From: Chrysophaeum taylorii
Lineage: Eukaryota > Sar > Pelagophyceae > Pelagomonadales > Pelagomonadaceae
Assembly: GCA_029834535.1 (NCBI GenBank)
Contig: JAQMWT010000314.1
Span: 496,001-560,000 of the forward strand
Direction of reading: 5' to 3'
Length of the DNA stretch: 64,000 nt
The position numbers and the translations under genes were made by a program. Positions 49,966-64,000 of this stretch are shown in pieces (the first letter of the stretch is position 1; each line of letters begins with the position of its first letter). The notes beneath the pieces are model-generated. The model did not search any database, was not told the DNA's origin, and saw nothing but the letters and a program-made list of their open reading frames with translations.

Positions 49966-52900
49966 CTAATGCGCCCTCGTAATTCGAACTGGGTTCACAT
50001 CTTCGAATTGCCGGTGAGACGGAGAGACCATGATTGCGAAACGAGCGCAGAGCCGGGCGGCGGTCGGAGGAGGCGCTTCAGCGGTGGTTGAGACGACAGT
50101 GTTTTGCGTATCATGAATCAAAAGGTGTTCGTGCATCGTACTGTGCGACAAGCGAGCGTGCGTCTCAGTTGACTGTGAGTGTACCATGGGTATGGCGCAA
50201 TGTTCGTAGTCTAAACCGAGAGGGGCGGTGAGCGTGCCGTCGCGAGTGCATAGGAGCCTGTGCGGTGTCTGAGCTGTAATCGGAATATGACATATGACGT
50301 CATACAAAGCGATGGGAGCTGTATCAGACGTGATGGGACTGGCTAGTAGTGCCGGGAGCAGCATGCGGGGGGTAGCGCTCAGAGATGAGGGTGGAACGCA
50401 GTCCACGTCTATCTTGGTTGCCGTATGTGGCGGTAATATGAGCGTAAACGCCTGACATGAAGGAAATGCTTGTGTCCCAAACGAGAATGCGGGTATAGTC
50501 GCATGGGAAGGTTGCATATTGTCTCTGCTGCAGTCAAAAGCTCTGGAGGAAACCAATGGAGAAACCACGAGCACATGGGTGGCGTCTTGTGGCCAAAGTT
50601 CCTGTGGGAGTGGTTGAGGTGACTCCAAAGTAGGATTCCTTCTTGGGTGTGACTCAAGCATTGCGATGACTTCATGCTCGAGATCATAGTCGTCCAATAG
50701 ATGACTTGAGGTGATCGCGAATGAGCGATGCGTCGACCTGGTGTCAGGGGAGACCGAGGTGGTGCTGTAACCTGACTTGCTGAGGTAGCCGTGCTGGTAA
50801 GATTCCAGCGGGTGCGCATAACTCTGCAGAGTGCTGACATTGGCCTGTGCCTGATCTGAAGTCGTGCAGGGAGGCGAGATCGTCTGTGCTAATACGGATT
50901 GCAGCGACAGAGAAGGGTCGGGTGCCTGGGAGGCTGAAAAGCGGCCTTTGTCTTCCAGAGGCGAAGGGAACAAGCAGAGCTGTAGCTTCGTCTCGTCGTG
51001 ATCGGATAGGCGCAATGAGCTTGTGCGCGTGATCGTGGTGCGCTTACCTGTGTCTTCATGATGTTCCTTTGTGTCCTGTGGTGGTGCTTCTGCGAGCGGG
51101 ACATATCTTAAGGATTGGTCCATCGGATGGGGTACATCAGCTATGAATGAGACAGGAGCCAGTAGCAGTGCAAGGTCAGGTGACAGAGCGTTTGCGTGGT
51201 CGAGTAGTTGAGCGTTGGACCTGAGCATCGTCTGCATAGTCTGGAACCGTGCTGTGCAGTTGGTTTGCGTTGTCTCGTCTGCTACATCAATGAGCTGGCT
51301 GGTGTAGCTGGCCGTTGTGGTCTTATCTTTCGTCTTGTCGTCCAATAAAGACTGCGAGATAGTACTCGTTGCTATGTGCGAGACTTTAAGTAGCTGTTGA
51401 GCAGCTGTTGAGAGCTGAGTGCTCTCTTGTCTGGCAGTATCGGTTGCTTTGGAGTTCCAGAGACATGGTTGCGCAGCTTCGGACGTCTTGGCATTGGGGA
51501 TTGCCATGAAGTAACTCGTAAGTTCAAAGTCGGACGTCGGAAAATGCATCGAAAGACCTGTGAGGTCACCAATTGATATACGTCCTCGTAGGGCGTGCGC
51601 GACGTGGTGCGGGCGCGCGCGACTTAGGTTGGTGATCTGAAGGTCGTGAGATACGTTGCGGCGCGGAGCGTCGATGGAAATGACGAGTGTCGTGGTGTTA
51701 GATGCGGTGACGCGGAGAGCATCGAAAAGCGTGTCATGCTCCAAGAGCGAAAGCGCGTGATGCGGGTGGTCCGAAGTCAGTGCCAAAAGGGGTGTAGCTC
51801 GCGGCTGACCAGTCTGCAAGGTAGGGCAGATGGGCGCGTGAGCTGAGATCCCGTGGTGGAGAGTATCCGGCCTGGAATGCTTGGGGTCCAGTGCGGGAAT
51901 TCGAAAAGAGGGGTCGCCGAAGGAGAGTGTAGTAGAACCAAGGGCGATGTAAGGGTCAGTCCTGCTGGGTGCATCCTCAATAGCGGAGATGCTGGGACCA
52001 GAGCAGTGAGTGCCGTATTGACCAGGGTTGCCCTTTGGCGTGTTGAGCATTCGAAGGTGCGGGCATGTGACATGCGTCCTCAAATGAGGAGTGACGTGCT
52101 GAGCGATAAGACGCTTTTGAGGGAGGCAACGTACGTGACTTGCGTGCATGTTTGTGGTGGAGCCGGCAGCTGGCGTGGAACGTTTGTCGTGCATTCCAGT
52201 GATGCGAAAATGCTTACATAACTGGTTCAGTTGAAGCGAGCCTGTGCATAGTGCGAGGAGAATGTTTCCTGAGAGCGCAACGTCGATTTTCCGGAGGCAG
52301 CGCAAGCGTGTGGCGTCCAGAAGAGAGCTATGCAAGGGGACACACAGGACCGAAGTGGTCGCAATGGAATCGTGCATAGTTTGCGGCTGATCGGGTCGTT
52401 CAGAACTCTCGAAATCTGTGTCTGTTACTGCAGCCATGGGGAAAGCTTTCCAGAGGCTTGTTCGCGGTGAGACATAAGGATCGGCAGTCAAAAGGAGTGC
52501 GTCCTCTGACCGAAAGTTAGGGAGCGGGTGATCAGGTGCTGCAACTGGTGCTCGTGCGAAGACATCCATAAAATCGTTACACGGTGGTCGCAGATGGGTC
52601 CATGCAACCTGCTGAGCAGTGTCATCCAGTGCATCCAACCGAGAAGGTGGATGGTGGGTGCAGCAGCAAGTGCCGGTGAGCGGCAGTGCGCGCCTGTCTT
52701 CGAGGAGGGGAGGCGGCGATGCGAAACCAGCTTCGAAGTGGTCGGGAGCTGCTGATCGAGAGATATCGAACAAGGCGGGAGTGCCTGGTGAATCTGAGCT
52801 GATACCTGCAGGTGCGGTGAGTGCCTGCGAGTATGGTGACCGTTGGACCGTTGACAGCGTGTCTTGTCCTTGTGGATACGGCATTGCAGGGGCATTGATG

Positions 52901-54807
52901 GTGCTTGGATCAGGCGGCTGATCTGGAATGGTCGAGGAGACCATCTTCGAGACTTGTGAAGTGGGTCTTGCTACTTCGTTGTATGCATCATACCAGGGGA
53001 CTGAATCGGAAGGGATGTTGTCAGTGGCCTGCGGCTCTTGTGCCCGGTGCATGGAATACGGCGGAGCCTTAGGTTCTTGGGTGTGGTTGCCATAGTCGAT
53101 GTAGGCATAATACTCGGGAACATCTTGAGGTGTATTGGTCTTTGACTTGTCGAAAGTGGGATCGAGATGGCTTGGTGTTTCTTCGACAAGATTGCTTCCT
53201 GGGCCGTTGTGCCCGAAGAGAGAAGAAGCCCTTATGCATGTCTTGGCAGCATGATGGTGAGCATGACCATCTGGCAAAGGGCTGTCTTTTGATAGTTCGG
53301 AACTTGTCGACTCTTGATGTGGGTGGTCTTGACTCTTGGTGGGACTTTGCACGTGGTGATGATCGTCGCTGGTGGTAGGGGTACGGTCGCCGGTGTTGAG
53401 TGTACGCCCTTGCAACTCGGACGCGGGGATGTGGTCGAGTTGGAATGAACCAGATGGCTGATAAGGCGAGCGGGTGCCAAGGGGTTCAGGGGGTGCCAGA
53501 GAGGCGAAGAGTGGTTTGGCAGAGGAGGAGGGGCCAGAGATGGCGGGGTGTTGAGAACAGACAGGTGGAGTGGGTGGTGAACCAGGAGAACCGGGTCCAG
53601 GGCACCCGTGGAGGTGGTGATGATATTCGGGGAGAATCGGGGGAGAGGCATTGGAGGTTGGTTCGGAAGGGGATGAAGGTTGGTTGTGGATGGGGAAAGG
53701 AGGTGAAAGATGCGATGCAGCATCTTGGGTGGGGTGAGTGGCATCCAATGAGGTAAGAATGGTTTGGAGGACGGCGTTGGTTTCAAGGTGGGAGCTGCGG
53801 ATGTCAGCATGGGTAGTTTCGAGTGCCTTGAGCTGGGTATGGGTGAGATGGAGTTCGGCTTGGGAGGAGACCAGTTCGTCGGCTTGGATGGCGAGCTGGG
53901 CAGTGGCGAAAGCCAGGGCGGCGTCGGTGATGTTGAGTTTGGCGGCTGTGGAGGACAAAGCATCATCCCTGCAAATGAGCGTGGCCTTAGTTGCGGCCAA
54001 TTCGGCGGCTTGAGAGCGGAGTGCATCCTTAGTGGCGGCCAACTCGTGTTGGAGCGCGGACGGAGGTGCATTGGAACTTGGAGAAAGGAGGTGGGTGGTT
54101 GCTTGAGTGGGGACGGAGGAATGGTCGTAGTCGTGGAATGCATAGTCACGCGGGTGGAGGTGCAAATCGGGGGAATAGCGACTTTCGAAAGGTGATGAAG
54201 GTCTGTCAGGGTGGTGCGATGGTTGGGCGGCAGGAACTTGAGCCGCGGAAGGAGCTATGGTAGAAATGGAAGTGCCGGGGCCTTCGTGGCCGTAGGTGGC
54301 ATGGTCTTGTGGATGGAGAGGAAAGTCCTGAGGAGAGCGACTTGCGGAAGATGATGGATATCGGACAAGGGAATCCGACAGTGGGGCGGCATGAGCTTGA
54401 GCCGCGGTGGGGGCTTGGTCAGGGATGAAGGTGCCGGGGCCGTCATGGCCGTATATGGCATCATCATCTAGGAGATGAGTGGTGCGGCGAGGGGGTTGAC
54501 GAGGATGTTGGGGAACTTGAATAGATGGTGACGTGGGAGTCGCCGATAGTGGGGAGTTAGGCTCCAGTGAAGGAGGTGGAGGCTCCGGTGGGGTTGGTGG
54601 AGTGAAGGGAGTAATGTTTAGTGGTGGTGGTGGTGGTGGAGTCTTCAACATCGCTGGTGCGATATTCGAACAAGGTGGAGTGTGTCTCGTGAATGTGGGG
54701 TGTGCCAGGTTGTGGAGTAACCTTGGCGATGCCTGGGTCCGGAGGGAAGGCAGTGGGGTCTGAGACTTTGCCGTGGGGTGCTTGACATCCGGTGGAGTAG
54801 TCGGCAT
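49966..54807 (-). CDS. giant Pro/Ser/Thr-rich protein of unknown function
   Basis: An uninterrupted 1,613-codon frame from ATG 54807. Order: Pro-rich head (TPPPPPPLNITPFTPPTPPE); a tandem ~60-residue repeat with IYGHDGPGT, TYGHEGPGT and a degenerate FHDYDH copy; a coiled coil at ~260-345 with ALQHELAATKDALRSQAAEL and QLAIQADELVSSQAELHL; more Pro/Ser-rich sequence with a further LFGHNGPGS copy; then a long, less biased region (~800-1613) with clustered His, Cys and hydrophobic stretches (GNILLALCTGSLQLNQLC, LLPALLASPITSDTAPIALY). No enzymatic motif, RT YxDD box or zinc knuckle was seen. Such a long stop-free stretch at near-50% GC argues for selection or recent insertion. Structural or capsid-like role is only a guess. 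Confidence 0.6.
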   Translation of the reverse strand: MPTTPPDVKHPTAKSQTPLPSLRTQASPRLLHNLAHPTFTRHTPPCSNIAPAMLKTPPPPPPLNITPFTPPTPPEPPPPSLEPNSPLSATPTSPSIQVPQHPRQPPRRTTHLLDDDAIYGHDGPGTFIPDQAPTAAQAHAAPLSDSLVRYPSSSASRSPQDFPLHPQDHATYGHEGPGTSISTIAPSAAQVPAAQPSHHPDRPSSPFESRYSPDLHLHPRDYAFHDYDHSSVPTQATTHLLSPSSNAPPSALQHELAATKDALRSQAAELAATKATLICRDDALSSTAAKLNITDAALAFATAQLAIQADELVSSQAELHLTHTQLKALETTHADIRSSHLETNAVLQTILTSLDATHPTQDAASHLSPPFPIHNQPSSPSEPTSNASPPILPEYHHHLHGCPGPGSPGSPPTPPVCSQHPAISGPSSSAKPLFASLAPPEPLGTRSPYQPSGSFQLDHIPASELQGRTLNTGDRTPTTSDDHHHVQSPTKSQDHPHQESTSSELSKDSPLPDGHAHHHAAKTCIRASSLFGHNGPGSNLVEETPSHLDPTFDKSKTNTPQDVPEYYAYIDYGNHTQEPKAPPYSMHRAQEPQATDNIPSDSVPWYDAYNEVARPTSQVSKMVSSTIPDQPPDPSTINAPAMPYPQGQDTLSTVQRSPYSQALTAPAGISSDSPGTPALFDISRSAAPDHFEAGFASPPPLLEDRRALPLTGTCCCTHHPPSRLDALDDTAQQVAWTHLRPPCNDFMDVFARAPVAAPDHPLPNFRSEDALLLTADPYVSPRTSLWKAFPMAAVTDTDFESSERPDQPQTMHDSIATTSVLCVPLHSSLLDATRLRCLRKIDVALSGNILLALCTGSLQLNQLCKHFRITGMHDKRSTPAAGSTTNMHASHVRCLPQKRLIAQHVTPHLRTHVTCPHLRMLNTPKGNPGQYGTHCSGPSISAIEDAPSRTDPYIALGSTTLSFGDPSFRIPALDPKHSRPDTLHHGISAHAPICPTLQTGQPRATPLLALTSDHPHHALSLLEHDTLFDALRVTASNTTTLVISIDAPRRNVSHDLQITNLSRARPHHVAHALRGRISIGDLTGLSMHFPTSDFELTSYFMAIPNAKTSEAAQPCLWNSKATDTARQESTQLSTAAQQLLKVSHIATSTISQSLLDDKTKDKTTTASYTSQLIDVADETTQTNCTARFQTMQTMLRSNAQLLDHANALSPDLALLLAPVSFIADVPHPMDQSLRYVPLAEAPPQDTKEHHEDTGKRTTITRTSSLRLSDHDETKLQLCLFPSPLEDKGRFSASQAPDPSLSLQSVLAQTISPPCTTSDQAQANVSTLQSYAHPLESYQHGYLSKSGYSTTSVSPDTRSTHRSFAITSSHLLDDYDLEHEVIAMLESHPRRNPTLESPQPLPQELWPQDATHVLVVSPLVSSRAFDCSRDNMQPSHATIPAFSFGTQAFPSCQAFTLILPPHTATKIDVDCVPPSSLSATPRMLLPALLASPITSDTAPIALYDVICHIPITAQTPHRLLCTRDGTLTAPLGLDYEHCAIPMVHSQSTETHARLSHSTMHEHLLIHDTQNTVVSTTAEAPPPTAARLCARFAIMVSPSHRQFEDVNPVRITRAH

Positions 54808-55250
54808 GAGCGGGGAGTGACCATCGAGATGATCGGGTCTTGGGTCGCGACTTCGTGAGAAGTTTGCTTTTGCTTGAGGGGAGTTGTCGTAAGAACAGCT
54901 GGCTGGGGAGCTTGTTCAAGTTGCTCGTCTTGATCGAGTTGGACGTCTTGAGCTGCGATTGCGGCAGCGATTTTTTCGGCGAGCGCAGCTTTTTCGGCAG
55001 CTTGTTTGGCTCTTAGATTAGCGCGATCAGAGGTGACCCGATTTAATATTTCATCTAGGTGCTGTTTGAGCGGCTGCCAGAAAGCTTGTGGGTCTTGTTG
55101 TGTAGCGAATTGCGTCGCTACTTCCAGACTCACTGGACTTGTGGGTCGTGAGTCGCCATCGTTTTCGGGGTTGCGTTTTGCGCGTTGTTGGTTGCCTTTC
55201 ACACGTTTCACACTTTGTTCACCAGTAGCAAGTGATGAGACTTGACTACG
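54645..55250 (-). CDS. N-terminal overlapping frame of the island, no ATG
   Basis: Open from just after a TAA near 55258 to 54645; no ATG in the useful part. It encodes a charged helical segment: ATQFATQQDPQAFWQPLK, LDEILNRVTSDRANLR and AKQAAEKAALAEKIAAAIAA. It overlaps the 1,613-codon frame by ~160 bp in the -1 relation. It may be the real N-terminus joined by frameshifting or a short intron, or a separate small protein started at a non-ATG codon. Confidence 0.4.
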   Translation of the reverse strand, partial: RSQVSSLATGEQSVKRVKGNQQRAKRNPENDGDSRPTSPVSLEVATQFATQQDPQAFWQPLKQHLDEILNRVTSDRANLRAKQAAEKAALAEKIAAAIAAQDVQLDQDEQLEQAPQPAVLTTTPLKQKQTSHEVATQDPIISMVTPRSCRLLHRMSSTPRQSLRPHCLPSGPRHRQGYSTTWHTPHSRDTLHLVRISHQRC

Positions 55251-58403: not shown

Positions 58404-59607
58404 ACTATACGTATTGACGGTGGTGATGTGGCCCTCAGAGAGAGAGTTGGGTTGTGGCCTGTAGTGGAATTGTCCGTCAACCCTCGCGGATTCGATTCGT
58501 ACGGGCTCCAAGGGTTTAGTGCCACATCATCATCGGGAGGCCGGGTGTCTCATGATCATCATCCTCAGCGGGAGTGTGTGCGTACGTCGCTGCCTCTCTT
58601 TTCCCGCCGTTGGCGAATAAACCAGAACGCCAGAGCTGAGACGACGCTGATATGGGGAGGGAAAATCTGCTGGTGGTCGCTCCGGTCGGACCACTTATTA
58701 TTACTACAGAGAAATCTGCTGCCTCTTACCCTAATCCGTCTGTTGAGAACGTGATCTCTTCCTTACCCTTTTTGATATCTTCTTTACCCTTTCTTCTTCC
58801 TTTCTACATCCTTTCTACACAGTCCTCAATTAGTCCTCTGATATTTGTGCTCAAGCTCATCATCATGGTCTAGCGCGCCCCGAGGTATGTAGCACTATAC
58901 ACTTTACCTTTCTCGCGTAGTTCTAGATGCCGCCTGTCGTGTTCTGAGGATATAGGGAACATACCTTTTCTTTCCCCGAATTAAATACTTCCAGACGTTC
59001 ATGATGAGACGGGATGGTTTCCCAGGTGACATACCACTGCATGCTAAATGCTCTGCAGGTTATGGGCCCAGGCGGGTCCCTGAGAAATCATGTGTCAAAG
59101 CGTGCACGTAGCCTATGGGTTTTGGACTGTTACCGCGCCGGTCCAGCCTCGCCACGCAAACACGCTTGTCAATATAACGCCATTACCATTGGGCTGTATG
59201 TAGCATATTTTGCACACGTGATCGCGTAACCTTGTGTGGACCTTTTCATAGTATCGTGTTGTCATGTTAATGTTGATGTGTGTGTAAGTTGGCTAACCTG
59301 CACTCTTGCACACATGTTATGGAATATTTTGGTTACGTCCACTCGTACATTCCATGGCAATGCACCTAACAAGCTCCTTGAGAGCACCAAAACTAACCAG
59401 CTGCCTGGCACCAAAACTAACCAGCTGCCTGAGTGATTACGCTTAGCGACACTACTCTGGACTCACAGCTTGCACAGTCGTCAAATAGACATTTTTCCAT
59501 CGAAAACGAAGGAGTGTACATACAATGACACCGATAGACAGACCCCCTTAGAATGTCTAGACAGTGTCAACTGCGTGACCGAACCCACAGGTTCCCCGTC
59601 AACTGCT
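58404..59607. other. AT-richer region upstream of the retroelement
   Basis: Composition shifts to lower GC by about 58.6 kb. It holds a short duplication CCAAAACTAACCAGCTGCCT (~59387-59432). It should contain the 5' terminal repeat and primer-binding site of the element if that is an LTR element, but the 3' copy is outside the window so the boundary cannot be set. No gene supported. Confidence 0.4.
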
Positions 59608-60384
59608 ATGGCAGAACACGCAGCACGAGCCGCACCCAAGGCGATCACAGGTGCGGACATACTAAAGCTCGAAGCTCCTGTAGTTGAGTTTCTTAACGAA
59701 GGAAATCGATTTCAGCTTCAGACCCGCAAGGTATCCTTGCAAATTAAGCACATTAAGCAATTATTACGGTCCAGTCATGCCGATGCCTTCCTCGAGTACG
59801 ACTCGTACGAAGCATACACTCGGTCATGCAAGGACTACGAGATCCTCCGGAATCAAATTCTCGATCGCGTTTTCCTGGAATGGAAGACCGATAGGGCTGC
59901 TGATCTCCGTTTAGCTGTTGATGAATTGCCCCCTGAGTATCAGGAATGGCACTTCACCAATGAAGCTTTCCCCAACTTACCTGATGCAGAAGTAGCTCAG
60001 CTAGCTACTGTCTGTTACGACAATGAAGTCAAGGCATTACGCCCTGAAATCAATCCTCGTTTCTTAGAAGAGGAACGAATCTTAAATCGCGCGCACCCGA
60101 AAGCATTAGCTTTTGACACCCGTGTTCGTGCCCCTGTTACCATGCTTTCGTTAACTGCTGCTGACTGGCACACTTATCAGAACACGTATGCTACATTCTT
60201 GCATACTTACTTCAATCTTGAAAGTGTTGGAAAACCAGCACTTGCGGCCTGGCCCGCCATCAATGAGGTGTATAACAAAAGTTATTTACCCAACAAGGCT
60301 CGAGCCATTATGCTCATTGCCTTTAGTCACTACGAGTCTGTTACGACTACTGATGTGTCCTACCTGAAACAGCAGTTTATCTAA
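59608..60384 (+). CDS. Gag-like protein, N-terminal part
   Basis: 258 residues from MAEHAARAAPKA; the frame opens earlier, at 59470. Mainly helical, soluble: ADILKLEAPVVEFLNEGNRF, IKHIKQLLRSSHADAFLEY, DWHTYQNTYATFLHTYFNLE. No zinc knuckle. The position before a protease-containing frame and the helical composition suggest a capsid (Gag) protein. It ends at a TAA; gag-like sequence resumes in another frame after ~20 bp. Confidence 0.5.
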   Translation: MAEHAARAAPKAITGADILKLEAPVVEFLNEGNRFQLQTRKVSLQIKHIKQLLRSSHADAFLEYDSYEAYTRSCKDYEILRNQILDRVFLEWKTDRAADLRLAVDELPPEYQEWHFTNEAFPNLPDAEVAQLATVCYDNEVKALRPEINPRFLEEERILNRAHPKALAFDTRVRAPVTMLSLTAADWHTYQNTYATFLHTYFNLESVGKPALAAWPAINEVYNKSYLPNKARAIMLIAFSHYESVTTTDVSYLKQQFI

Positions 60385-60401
60385 GTTGTTTATAATCCTA
60401 A

Positions 60402-61067
60402 CTGGTATGTCCATGTGTCTTTATTGAAGCTGCCCTCGCATTTAGACAAATCTCTAACCAACTTAACCAGGAAGAGACTGATCTTCAATTCGACTTTGGC
60501 ACTCTTTGTAGAAAATTTTATGAAGAGATACATCGGCATTATGCCGATAATACCAGCAACAATCGTTACGATCGTGGTTGGGTAGATTGGTGTTATATGT
60601 ATGAAACTCGATCTTCATCTCGGCCTGTGCCAGACGCTGAACGATTGTGTCACCCTACCAACCCTAGCTATATCTTAGAATACGCATTAGACTTGTATAA
60701 TGTAGTATCAAATGGGTCGAACAAAAGACGCTTAGAACGCCCTGTTTCTTGGCAACCCTACGTCGAAGGATTGACACCTCAACCAAAGCCAAAATTACTA
60801 CTTACCAACACGTTGGACTTATCAGACAAAAGTCTGACTCAAACTGCAAACACACTCGCGTCCATTACTTCTGCTCAACCAGGAACATCTTCCACGTTTA
60901 ACGCTAGACGCTTGCGTAACTCTAACGATGCTCGCCAGCCTTTCTCTCGCAGCGATCTATCTTATTATCGTTCTGGTGATTCTTATGTCACCAAGAAAAC
61001 TGCTGGACAGTCCCATGACCGTCAAATTACCCCCGCACTTTCGACAGGTCCTCTCCATCTAACATGA
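60402..61067 (+). CDS. Gag-like protein, C-terminal part
   Basis: Open from just after a TAA near 60400 (first ATG 60597) to the TGA at 61065. Protein-like before the ATG too (RQISNQLNQEETDLQFDFG, RKFYEEIHRHYADN), so the ATG is not a true start. Either a frameshift/stop has split Gag or a short intron joins the two (GTATGTCC at 60406 and TCTAACCAACTTAACCAG at ~60453-60470 look like splice signals, but the donor lies after the stop). Ends with a Ser/Arg-rich tail that could bind nucleic acid. Its stop overlaps the next ATG as ATGA. Confidence 0.4.
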   Translation: MVCPCVFIEAALAFRQISNQLNQEETDLQFDFGTLCRKFYEEIHRHYADNTSNNRYDRGWVDWCYMYETRSSSRPVPDAERLCHPTNPSYILEYALDLYNVVSNGSNKRRLERPVSWQPYVEGLTPQPKPKLLLTNTLDLSDKSLTQTANTLASITSAQPGTSSTFNARRLRNSNDARQPFSRSDLSYYRSGDSYVTKKTAGQSHDRQITPALSTGPLHLT

Positions 61068-62398
61068 AATTATTAGACCGAACGAAGCACACCTTAAATA
61101 CACTCCAAGAGCAGTGTAGTGAACTTACGAAGCATGTGACGGATAATGATACCACGGCTCAGCTACAACAGAACATCACCAAGTTATTTGAGACTCTATT
61201 GCAATCCGCTGATATTCTGTCAACGACATCTACTGAGGACAACAGTGACTTACTTCGCCTAAACGAACAACTCATGTTCGCAGAAGACATCATTTATGAT
61301 GTAGACGTTCATCTATCCTCGACCGAAAAGTCGTTAAACTACGTGGAGCCACAACATCATACTGTTGCTACTGCTCCCACCCCAAAGGCAACTCCTACTA
61401 CAGATACCAAGGATGCCTCTAACACGCAGGGTAATCCCTCCGATATTGTGCCTAACTTCTTTACTGCTTCCGCCATCTCGGCTTTACCACCAGCGTTACT
61501 GTCCTCGCTATCTTCACAGGTCCAATCAGCCATCAACCAACCACCACAAGCCGAAACCACAAGGGATGTCGATCAGACCTCGCTATCATCATTTGATGAG
61601 AAGCACGGCATGGCTGATGAGGCTGACGAACCATCACCACCTGTTCAACCGATTATCATTCCAACTCATCTGTTATTTCTGGAGAACTCCTTCACTGCCA
61701 GCCTCTCCACTACTTGCCCGCATTCGGAAAATGCTCTTCTAACGAAATATATGAAGGTAAACAGTGTCCCCCAACATTGTTCCTTCTTATATTTTGACTC
61801 TTGTGCTACCATCTCATTGATGTCCACGTACGATTTTGCAATACCAAATCATATTATTCCACTGGACTCCAAATACGCGCCGATTGTTATTCAAACTGCC
61901 ACTGGACAACAACGTGCCTCACATATGATGCTAACACGTAATATAATTGTTCCCCTACCAGATCACCCACAAATTGGCTGCGTCAAGATTGACATCGCTT
62001 TATGTCTTCAGCCAGTGCACGACCGACATCTCGCTATTCTGAGCATGCTCGAGTGGAACCAGACGAACCTGACCACTGTGTTCAATGATCGATCTGAGCC
62101 AAAGCTCAGCGCTGTCACAAGCCGCATAGACAAAGATGCGAGTATTCCCATGCACTACGTAGCAGCTAATTTACCTGCTCTCCCTTGTCTCACCTACAAC
62201 ATCTCTCGCGACAAGCAACTTGAACTACGCTCCCTCGCATTTCCGCTCAAGCGATACCACGAAAACAGGGATCTACTGGCATATTACAACTATCTCCTCA
62301 AGAGAGTTTTACCAGATCGCCCGTGGATTAGCCCTTTGGTTCTTAATCTTCGGAAACAGAACAAGTTTGTCCAGCAAAACACACCGCCATTAACATGA
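61064..62398 (+). CDS. aspartic-protease-containing polyprotein segment
   Basis: 444 residues. A helical N-terminus (LNTLQEQCSELTKHVTDND) and Ser/Thr/Pro linker precede a retropepsin-like domain at ~235-340: LYFDSCATISLMS (D245; family D-S/T-G/C-A, as in Ty1/copia DSGAT), IVIQTATGQQRASHM and DRHLAILSMLEWNQ (the later hydrophobic Ile-Leu-x-Met block, comparable to ILG-x-D/N). After it comes a linker with ELRSLAFPLKRYHENRD. The frame ends at TGA 62396-62398, then continues open in the same frame. Confidence 0.6.
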   Translation: MKLLDRTKHTLNTLQEQCSELTKHVTDNDTTAQLQQNITKLFETLLQSADILSTTSTEDNSDLLRLNEQLMFAEDIIYDVDVHLSSTEKSLNYVEPQHHTVATAPTPKATPTTDTKDASNTQGNPSDIVPNFFTASAISALPPALLSSLSSQVQSAINQPPQAETTRDVDQTSLSSFDEKHGMADEADEPSPPVQPIIIPTHLLFLENSFTASLSTTCPHSENALLTKYMKVNSVPQHCSFLYFDSCATISLMSTYDFAIPNHIIPLDSKYAPIVIQTATGQQRASHMMLTRNIIVPLPDHPQIGCVKIDIALCLQPVHDRHLAILSMLEWNQTNLTTVFNDRSEPKLSAVTSRIDKDASIPMHYVAANLPALPCLTYNISRDKQLELRSLAFPLKRYHENRDLLAYYNYLLKRVLPDRPWISPLVLNLRKQNKFVQQNTPPLT

Positions 62399-63112
62399 TT
62401 ACTCTCTCGCCCAGTGTTTCTCTCACAAGAGACCAATCTTCGCAAACCCTCTGTCATGTTGCTCTGTTCTGGTTTGTCAACCCCAGCGTCCCTGTCTCAA
62501 GCCACTAATGACCTAGGCTTAAATATCAATGTAAAAGTTGTTGTTGAGTCTGATGATACGCTTGTGCGCATGTTACGCCACCGTTTCCCTACAGTATTAT
62601 TATTTGAATCTTTACCCGCCTTTATCAACCACCTTCACCAACTCTCACCAGAGGAAAGGCGCAAATTTTATTGCGATATTATTGAGATAGCTCCTCCTTG
62701 CACTAACAGGAATCTACTAAAGCAGCATAATACCGAAGACTTACACAGCCTGCTCGACGACTCTCTGTTCGACAGCATGCTGTCTGTCATCAAACTTCTC
62801 CAACCCTTGGTACTACTGGCTGAGATGACACCACCCCACAAGTACTGTCATCAAGACCACATAACTGTGCCCAATCTCATCCATGCCACACTCGATTACC
62901 GTGTCGATGTTGTTGACAGGTTCCCGACCTACCTCTGTGGCGACTACCAATCTAGGGAAAGATGGATCTGCATCGCACGCAGGTATTCTACTGGACCAAT
63001 CAACTTACTGTCATGGCCTATCCACCATCCACGCCCCTTCCTTAGGATCGTGGATGGCATACAAGCCATTCCTAAGCGACTTTGGCTACCCAAACACATC
63101 GCCAAAGATTGA
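62399..63112 (+). CDS. C5-cytosine DNA methyltransferase-like domain in retroelement
   Basis: Same frame as the protease segment, open from the TGA at 62396 to the TGA at 63110 (~237 codons; no ATG until VMLLCSG at ~62456). Order of C5-MTase motifs: I, LLCSGLSTPASLSQATNDLG (SAM-binding loop); II-like VVVESDDTLVRMLRHRFP (acidic residue for ribose); IV, IEIAPPCTNRN with the catalytic Pro-Cys at ~62693-62701; VI, LLQPLVLLAEMTPP (Glu of the ENV motif); VIII, CGDYQSRERWICIARR (QxRxR). The catalytic Cys, Glu and Arg are all present. The target-recognition region is short or lies downstream. Likely methylates DNA 5-cytosine; expressed, if at all, as part of the polyprotein. Confidence 0.7.
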   Translation, partial: LLSRPVFLSQETNLRKPSVMLLCSGLSTPASLSQATNDLGLNINVKVVVESDDTLVRMLRHRFPTVLLFESLPAFINHLHQLSPEERRKFYCDIIEIAPPCTNRNLLKQHNTEDLHSLLDDSLFDSMLSVIKLLQPLVLLAEMTPPHKYCHQDHITVPNLIHATLDYRVDVVDRFPTYLCGDYQSRERWICIARRYSTGPINLLSWPIHHPRPFLRIVDGIQAIPKRLWLPKHIAKD

Positions 63113-64000
63113 ATCCGGGTGTTCCCCGATCCTCCATATGTCCCCGTTCCTAAATCGTTTGCACCTTACTCTCGCACAGGTTCTGTTCAGCTTACTATGG
63201 CTGACCTTGAAACACTCAATATGCTATTTTTGCGCCTTCACTCACAACAGGCTCACGAGCAACGCACTCACTTTGTTCAATCCGAGTGTACTTATCATCA
63301 GCTGTGTTTCAAACGCTCCTCCATAGATCCACTGCCTCATGCAACTAACCCACTTCACTTCAAGGCTTTTACAATCCTCTATAACGTGTTTGCCAGATTG
63401 CACACTAACTCACCCGCTCCTGTGTCCTATTACATAACCGTTTTCGAAACTGACCAACCGTCACATAGGTTACTACTTACAACCTCATCAACATCACATA
63501 ATACCTACTTCCTAACCGGCGGCCACCATTCTGACGGCAACCTCACCATAGAGAACGCCGCCACCAAATATCACACTTCCATTGGCGCGTTTGGAAGCAC
63601 GCATACATTTACTGCCTCCAACGTTCCCCACGACAGAGAGAGATCTTTATATTTGGAGCCGTTTATGGGTTACTTGTGGATAATCCAAGCCCTTCCTCAA
63701 GTTGGCTCCGCTGCCGCCTATGGCACCGCCATACAAAGGCTCTTGTCCAGATGCTCTCATGTGATGCCTGGCTGCCTTACCTACAAGGCCACCGACAACT
63801 CTTTCGACTACAAGGATTCTCATTTTGCTCTGGAAGATCACCACCTATCTCATAGTCGCTATATAGGGTATCTTCATGGCCTGATCGCCGACTGCGGTTG
63901 CGATGGAGGACGGTGCCTCATGAATCCTGAGCCTTGCGAGGGCATCCGCCCTCCCGGCGTAGGTTGGCACCTATTCGCCTCCCGGGCGGGCCGGTTGGCA
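63113..64000 (+). CDS. downstream polyprotein segment, partial
   Basis: The same frame continues open from 63113 to the end of the window (~296 codons), beginning IRVFPDPPYVPVPKSF. It includes HFKAFTILYNVFARLH, LEPFMGYLWIIQALPQVGS, HVMPGCLTYKATDNSFDYK and a Cys-rich end DCGCDGGRCLMNPEPC. No RT, RNase H or integrase signature yet. It could hold the end of the MTase or a separate element-specific domain. Confidence 0.45.
   Translation, partial: MRVFPDPPYVPVPKSFAPYSRTGSVQLTMADLETLNMLFLRLHSQQAHEQRTHFVQSECTYHQLCFKRSSIDPLPHATNPLHFKAFTILYNVFARLHTNSPAPVSYYITVFETDQPSHRLLLTTSSTSHNTYFLTGGHHSDGNLTIENAATKYHTSIGAFGSTHTFTASNVPHDRERSLYLEPFMGYLWIIQALPQVGSAAAYGTAIQRLLSRCSHVMPGCLTYKATDNSFDYKDSHFALEDHHLSHSRYIGYLHGLIADCGCDGGRCLMNPEPCEGIRPPGVGWHLFASRAGRLA

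Follow-up and report, generated by a model that had tools for sequence, protein, structure and literature searches.

The stretch analyzed here (the window; 64,000 nucleotides of Chrysophaeum taylorii, G000:C314:496001-560000) ends within a Ty1/Copia long terminal repeat (LTR) retrotransposon that probably places a cytosine-C5 methyltransferase (C5-MTase) at the head of its Pol, ahead of the integrase and the reverse transcriptase (RT), and that is predicted to methylate its own new complementary DNA (cDNA). The anatomy of this element, its copy number, its relation to C5-MTases, the purifying selection on it and the conserved UGA codon in front of pol were established here. The copy in the window is decayed, a fossil, and was compared with other loci (given L numbers; L017 holds the continuation of the window copy) of the assembly searched (70.8 Mb, 697 contigs). 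The copies of the same family are called A; a related lineage (A'), a second Copia family (B) and a Ty3/Gypsy family (C) of the same genome are treated below. The features of the window copy, where ORF denotes an open reading frame and SINE a short interspersed nuclear element, are as follows.

58710..59057 (start approximate), + strand: 5' LTR; its 3' end reads ..GCTCTGCA, and it has no TG start
59058..59072, + strand: primer binding site GGTTATGGGCCCAGG, directly after the LTR, complementary to the anticodon-stem half of initiator tRNA-Met
59437..61067, + strand: gag region, in two frames in this copy (59437-60384 and 60402-61067, from the ORF list)
61019..62395, + strand: C-terminal part of ORF1, with a protease-like DSCA motif at 61796-61807
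62396..62398, + strand: in-frame UGA between ORF1 and pol, conserved among copies
62399..63109, + strand: predicted N-terminal half of the C5-MTase, motifs I-VIII (from PF00145, the residues common to A, A' and B, and the fold search)
62459-62485, 62693-62701, 62819-62827 and 62948-62965, + strand: motif I, motif IV (PPC), motif VI (AEM) and motif VIII (QSRERW), respectively
63110..63112, + strand: nonsense TGA of the window copy; Trp stands at that place in other copies
63113..63880, + strand: continuation of the MTase beyond motif VIII, a long stretch that precedes motif IX and is presumed to serve target recognition, in phase with 62399-63109
63881..64000, reaching 64235 outside the window, + strand: SINE-like insertion of 355 bp between TTCATGG repeats

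The frame at 62399-63112 runs without interruption from one stop to the next and contains LLCSGLSTPA, APPCTNRN, LLAEM and QSRERW in that order, as a preliminary description of this DNA had claimed for motifs I, IV, VI and VIII. The Pro-Cys of motif IV, the Glu of motif VI and the Arg of motif VIII stand in the order expected of a C5-MTase, and the key residues are kept in the family A copies (P100, C101, R186 and R188 in 21/21; E142 in 19/21). When the window frame was compared with Pfam, a single family was returned, PF00145 (DNA_methylase; E 0.1), and the same family, with no other, was found in 9 of 13 aligned A copies (best E 0.0032). These E-values refer to 24,736 models; for the single family predicted beforehand, they would be about four orders of magnitude smaller.

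Motifs IX and X were assigned by eye against the canonical forms of these motifs. In family A, stretches resembling these motifs (RYPTRPELIRANN ... DMLSNALPAG) were located at +541 to +543 from motif I, or at +531 in the internally deleted L010, and were present in 9/9 loci whose open frame extends far enough (L006 and L016 being one copy). In the A' locus L069 they read RHYSTRELARANN..IANAIPAG (in a longer reading, RHYSTRELARANNF ... IIANAIPAG) and lie in a frame overlapping that of motifs I-VIII; the corresponding stretches are RYATLNEIAKF..LANAVPHH at +508 in family B and LTLKMTAELLTMP..LASVVPPD at +257 in family C. The predicted family A enzyme has about 590 residues, with motifs I-X, of which VIII and IX are unusually far apart. 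The compact MTase of about 230 residues that had been proposed is not supported: the TGA ending at 63112 is a nonsense codon, and motifs IX and X of the window copy lie to the right of the window end.

Structure prediction gave a partial AlphaFold model with fold matches in the PDB over model residues 6-210. By their titles, the best 50 rows of each PDB fold list are all cytosine methyltransferases, except 3g7u, and the top Foldseek matches are DNMT2. A Rossmann-type MTase fold is predicted for the residues covered by the partial model. Several results weigh against the C5-MTase assignment. The model has a mean predicted local distance difference test score (pLDDT) of 37 and is useful only in parts of residues 11-170; its target-normalised template modelling scores do not exceed 0.40, and family B was part of the alignment behind it. 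A model from the 13 A copies alone had a pLDDT of 38 and no usable fold. The family A profile retrieved no DNA methyltransferase (DNMT) from the PDB at E<=10 (the window sequence alone found DNMT2 at E 0.22), and the window frame scored 12.4 bits against the PF00145 cut-off of 22, a curated detection threshold and not a defining trait of C5-MTases. These low family A scores, the A' frame that had no match to PF00145, and a comparison of A with two host-type MTases (hhalign) in which 52 of 100 column permutations reached the real score are what would be expected if the motifs were a chance resemblance within some undescribed retroelement domain. That reading is nevertheless highly improbable, and chance motifs were rejected on the genome copies, the PF00145 matches and the fold searches. 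The sole Pfam family among the 13 A copies is the one predicted, A and B align above all permutations, if narrowly, the fold search yields cytosine methyltransferases, and motifs IX and X come next in the correct order. At least 154 genome matches to the window MTase frame were found (protein search; 150 of 979 candidates scored), and since those listed besides the window are 73-94% identical (most near full length, some partial), the frame is not a chance one.

The backbone of family A was then clear from its pol, which runs in the order MTase, integrase and Copia RT; in L009, all three lie in a single frame of 1691 aa. The RVT_2 family was matched with E 7.7e-42 in L009 and 5e-40 in L017, and this match together with the pol order identifies the element as Ty1/Copia. 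The rve and SH3_retrovirus families were found N-terminal to RVT_2 in L009, L016, L017, L069 and L070, the rve match being weak and below the Pfam cut-off in each (E 0.0023-0.012). By eye, a Copia-like stretch (DADNAPSYEQDRKSTTGY) that may be RNase H follows the RT in A'; two post-RT frames of L009 had no Pfam match. A host gene adjoining an element was rejected, given the common frame of L009 and the number of genome matches. In viral contigs, no relatives of families A, B or C were found.

The LTRs of family A are about 310-350 bp long, have the 3' end CTGCA and share a common sequence at 5' and 3'. The limits of the 5' LTR were taken from an alignment of four 5' LTRs (L010, L011, L014 and L017) with three 3' LTRs (L009, L012 and L013), in which the flanks diverge left of AGAAATCTGC. 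The sequence GGTTATGGGCCC was found eight times in 13 oriented loci, seven times directly after the LTR end. The site GGTTATGGGCCCAGG presumably pairs with initiator tRNA-Met, and half-tRNA priming is a habit of copia-type elements. A purine run (polypurine tract) stands before the 3' LTR. The gag gene is intact in L014, as a single uninterrupted frame of 960 aa, and the DSCA motif is also present in the 830-residue ORF1 of L010. A Pfam search of the protease region gave no protease match, and the assignment was made from the DSCA motif and its position. In L010 (8909-9909), leader and gag sequence recurs after the second LTR copy, which suggests a tandem fusion of two elements; the L010 pol frame has no RVT_2.

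On these grounds (profile, predicted fold, copy number, integrase and RT, LTRs), the preliminary description was right to see a retroelement with its own C5-MTase; other genomic copies exist, and integrase, SH3 and RVT_2 lie downstream. One of its points held in part: the MTase is in phase with the putative aspartic protease said to share its frame, but the TGA at 62396-62398 splits the two. Its idea that the element methylates DNA to hide itself or to control the host is speculative. LTRs were found in other copies and a 5' LTR in the window copy; the 3 kb past L017 yielded no 3' LTR for it. Homology to L009 ends at about base 809 of L019, the remainder of which is without an LTR.

When the genome was searched with PF00145, at least 124 matches were obtained (123 of 474 candidates scored); by eye, none of the matches listed falls at a place listed for the window family. 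The A' lineage comprises L069 and L070. The MTase of L069 is 50% identical to that of A over 237 aligned residues and follows an ORF1 tail resembling that of A. Family B (L024-L029, L031-L037, L046-L052, L060 and L062-L068) had at least 145 genome matches (140 of 661 candidates scored). In its member L031, a single frame of 1951 residues carries PF00145 (E 1.1e-7, above the cut-off), rve and RVT_2, and ORF2 is in a different frame from ORF1, which it overlaps briefly. Its MTase is more canonical, with a VENV motif and PF00145 scores of 32.1 and 34.1 bits, and a PDB search with a profile of four B copies retrieved three C5-MTases (E 0.013-0.034). Family C (L030, L038-L045, L057-L059 and L061; for example G000:C5:518500-528499) has open frames of up to 3067 aa. 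In L061, a single frame of 2692 aa carries PF00145 (E 0.0011, below the cut-off), RVT_1, RNase H, H2C2 and rve, in the domain order of Ty3/Gypsy with the MTase ahead of the RT. Another member, L030, found DNMT2 first in the PDB (E 0.036). At least 140 matches were obtained for family C (140 of 970 scored), and some copies look recent because several are 99-100% identical.

In all three families, A, B and C, a protease-like motif (DSCA, DGGA and DGMA, respectively; by eye) stands about 200-350 residues ahead of the MTase, and the rest of pol follows the MTase. When Copia elements were sampled beyond the A and B copies already analyzed, two RVT_2 places were taken from the best 150 of 1670 candidates; one of them, L069, carries an MTase, and the other, L070, has motifs VIII-X, with motif I not found. 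With a sample of this size, Copia elements lacking an MTase may well occur in this genome too. The independent or new family suggested earlier is a new variant, accompanied in the same genome by the Copia lineages A' and B and the Gypsy family C. Two host-type genes were also seen: L022 (1498-2574) contains a full-length Dnmt2-like MTase gene of 360 aa, with an ORF encoding a chlorophyll a/b-binding domain on the opposite strand, and L023 contains a second host-type DNMT within a frame of 2086 aa.

The residues G25, E50, P100, C101, E142 and R188 are common to the chosen rows of A, A' and B. In the hhalign comparison of A with B, the real score exceeded 100/100 column permutations narrowly (27.8 against 27.7 for the best permutation), and the full-length comparison gave p 0.024; blastp gave E 0.007 for the N-terminal half and E 5.9e-4 for a stretch reaching motif IX and the start of X. 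Profile hidden Markov models aligned colinearly in both directions with scores barely above shuffles (B on A, 1.7-8.2 against a top shuffled score of 4.0; A on B, 2.2-11.0 against 11.0). Between A and A', identity is 50% in the MTase, 57% in the integrase and 63% in the RT; between A and B, it is 18, 24 and 37%. As the three identities fall together, a single entry of the MTase into the Copia stock, preceding the split of A, A' and B, is most likely. A and C were beyond 100/100 permutations over 50 columns only. Between B and C no relation was detectable by hhalign, 35 of 100 permutations reaching the real score; this, the result with the host-type MTases, the PDB search with the A profile and the A' frame without a PF00145 match count against a relation of these MTases to one another and to known ones.

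Selection was expressed as medians of pairwise Nei-Gojobori ratios of nonsynonymous to synonymous change (dN/dS), with copy sets that differ by domain and saturated pairs left out. In family A, the values were 0.10 for the MTase (17 copies), 0.14 for the RT (6), 0.15 for the protease region (15), 0.185 for gag (5), 0.21 for the integrase (9) and 0.25 for the VIII-X region (15). With four more copies (21), the MTase value was 0.15, no lower than that of the RT, and the domain values come from different copy sets; both points detract from the MTase figure. Given these differing sets and the omitted pairs, the safe reading is that the family A MTase is under purifying selection, with a constraint like that of the RT. 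The MTase values were 0.22 in family B (20 copies) and 0.07 in family C (12 copies). The Cys of motif IV is kept in 21/21 A, 18/20 B (one gap) and 12/12 C copies, and family B keeps the Glu in 17/20 and the Arg in 20/20.

In C5-MTases, motif VI canonically reads ENV and motif I FxGxGG; in family A, motif VI is AEM and motif I is without FxGxGG. A catalytically dead or weak MTase, acting as a DNA- or RNA-binding part of the particle, would account for these departures and for the low profile scores. We regard it as quite improbable, as the catalytic Cys and both Arg are intact in every A copy and the Glu in all but two, the MTase dN/dS is low on 17 as on 21 copies, and the canonical forms persist in the relatives, ENV in most B copies and FSGAGG in C.

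The base-composition footprint was mixed. Observed/expected CpG was 0.86-0.98 in four A stretches, 1.04 in B, and 1.15 and 1.30 in C, compared with 1.27-1.44 in six of seven 8-kb blocks of the window and 0.98 in the seventh. C/T differences before G amounted to 0.087 in A (0.109-0.115 in the other three contexts), 0.245 in B (the highest) and 0.096 in C (the lowest), and G/A differences after C to 0.126 in A (highest), 0.121 in B (second) and 0.122 in C (highest). Families A and B thus show a slight CpG deficit and C almost none, and the missing enrichment of C/T differences before G in A argues against DNA methylation by the element, though G/A differences are highest after C, among the four contexts, in A and C. 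The unclear CG footprint, the DNMT2 matches at the top of the Foldseek list and the apparent use of an initiator tRNA-Met half as primer would suit a genuine C5-MTase fold that acts, like DNMT2, on RNA (the element RNA or the primer tRNA) and not on DNA; RNA methylation was raised for SymbioLINE-Dnmt by the authors of the 2018 study (PMC5890265). We consider an RNA target unlikely, and methylation of DNA remains our preferred reading.

The codon at the boundary between ORF1 and pol is TGA in 20/21 family A copies and TAA or TAG in none; the exception, L011, has unrelated sequence upstream of the junction. In the A' locus L069, an in-phase TGA likewise stands directly before the MTase frame, and a stop retained in phase across the divergence of A and A' points to a programmed bypass. 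TGA as a sense codon was not supported: read with the standard code, pol frames stay open for more than 1000 residues, and the TGA at the boundary does not vary. It is followed by CTA in 9, ATA in 5, ATG in 3, and CTG, CCA and TTA in one each of the 20 copies. UGA CUA is a readthrough context, and other codons after the UGA are also common in family A. A stable RNA fold after the UGA was not found (5/5 z-scores between -0.33 and 0.86), which counts against a bypass. The Candida albicans element Tca2 is of the Ty1/Copia type. As in family A, its gag and pol are split by UGA; in Tca2, Pol comes from the gag-pol RNA, the abstract mentions no MTase, and the immediate flanks are reported to be insufficient for readthrough in Saccharomyces cerevisiae (PMC2194720).

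This last observation, the missing RNA structure and a Met (Met20) directly before motif I that is invariant in 13/13 A rows leave room for a tentative alternative, in itself doubtful, in which Pol is made by internal initiation (for example, at this Met) or from a shorter RNA. However, the phase is kept and the UGA is present in all A and A' copies having the junction, CUA follows it in 9/20, A' has Thr where A has the Met, and the 19 codons past the UGA vary most at third positions (8 variable sites against 4 and 4, small numbers, in 18 copies).

In the favored account, that of UGA bypass and cDNA methylation, ribosomes would bypass the UGA and reach Pol, and a Gag-Pol fusion containing MTase, integrase and RT would thereby be produced at a low level. 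The fusion would be packaged with the RNA in a virus-like particle. The MTase may then methylate cytosines of the double-stranded cDNA once it has been synthesized, either ahead of integration or shortly after it, so that new copies would come in already marked like resident DNA. The most likely function of the predicted MTase is to methylate the element's own freshly synthesized DNA. Several Copia lineages and a Gypsy family share this gene order, which argues for a benefit of the activity to LTR elements in this host. It is conceivable, though on balance we doubt it, that LTR elements here can hardly persist unless they carry a C5-MTase, with A, A' and B having inherited one ancient MTase together with their pol, C having acquired one separately at the corresponding place, and the host filtering unmethylated DNA as foreign; if so, only self-marking elements would persist, and the host filter would be restriction-like or mark-based.

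The window copy itself cannot produce the enzyme, which is a point against activity at this locus: its gag and protease region lie in three frames, the nonsense TGA interrupts the MTase, and the SINE-like insertion follows. In L009-L016, the segment 62399-63109 and its continuation form one uninterrupted frame. The window copy has its 5' LTR, and no target duplication is readable. The SINE-like repeat (L017:5382-5736) has an AGTT-rich tail and a TTCATGG target duplication, and no match to Rfam or to tRNA was found; it appears young and abundant because 40/40 scored copies (among 1869 candidates) are 99-100% identical. Elsewhere in the window, a 1649-aa open frame on the minus strand (49966-54915) had no Pfam match; its base composition (lower CpG, higher TpG) is closer to that of retroelements than to the rest of the window, and the stretch is perhaps another mobile element.

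DNMT capture is known from long interspersed nuclear elements (LINE) and DIRS elements of Symbiodinium and from a Gypsy element of Klebsormidium (de Mendoza 2018, PMC5890265). The preliminary description, which had named captures by Copia and Gypsy elements in dinoflagellates and a charophyte alga, was correct for Gypsy in Klebsormidium, but the Symbiodinium cases are LINE and DIRS, and the Copia elements of Symbiodinium are reported to lack a DNMT domain (PMC5890265). Like SymbioDIRS-Dnmt3 and SymbioLINE-Dnmt, family A is multi-copy, has a C5-MTase in a coding frame with the key residues kept, and is under purifying selection; unlike these DIRS and LINE elements, the former with an MTase of the Dnmt3 class, it is Copia. 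KnitGypsy-Dnmt3 of Klebsormidium nitens also has a C5-MTase inside the Pol of an LTR element, and family C is likewise Ty3/Gypsy, whereas KnitGypsy-Dnmt3 is Dnmt3-related, with fewer copies than in Symbiodinium, and A, A' and B are Copia (PMC5890265). DIRS elements with a Dam-like methylase offer another DNA methylase borne by a retroelement, but that enzyme is structurally unrelated and acts on adenine N6 (PMC5890265). The SymbioDIRS-Dnmt3 domains methylate CG in yeast, and cDNA methylation was proposed for DIRS elements by the same authors (PMC5890265). One sentence of a 2025 paper (PMC12344493) places DNMT3 in 'LTR Copia and DIRS' elements, and no further mention of a DNMT in a Copia element was found; the sentence credits the streptophytes and dinoflagellates of the 2018 paper, whose LTR element was called Gypsy, and refers to the DNMT3 class. 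In the openly licensed literature, no description was found of a Copia pol with the architecture MTase-integrase-RT, and within the literature searched this Copia-borne architecture is new relative to the LINE, DIRS and Gypsy captures of 2018.

The element adds to these captures a Copia backbone with a long-conserved stop before pol and a longer-than-usual putative MTase, and the captures of 2018 now seem to extend beyond LINE, DIRS and a single Gypsy element. Cytosine methylation is usually a weapon that the host turns on transposons; in this one genome, two superfamilies include elements that carry a putative writer of the mark, in hundreds of copies and under purifying selection. Parasitic DNA in this organism may therefore write its own marks and not only be silenced by those of the host, and it provides a concrete system for asking why elements methylate DNA, be it for cDNA protection, for passing as self or for self-limitation.
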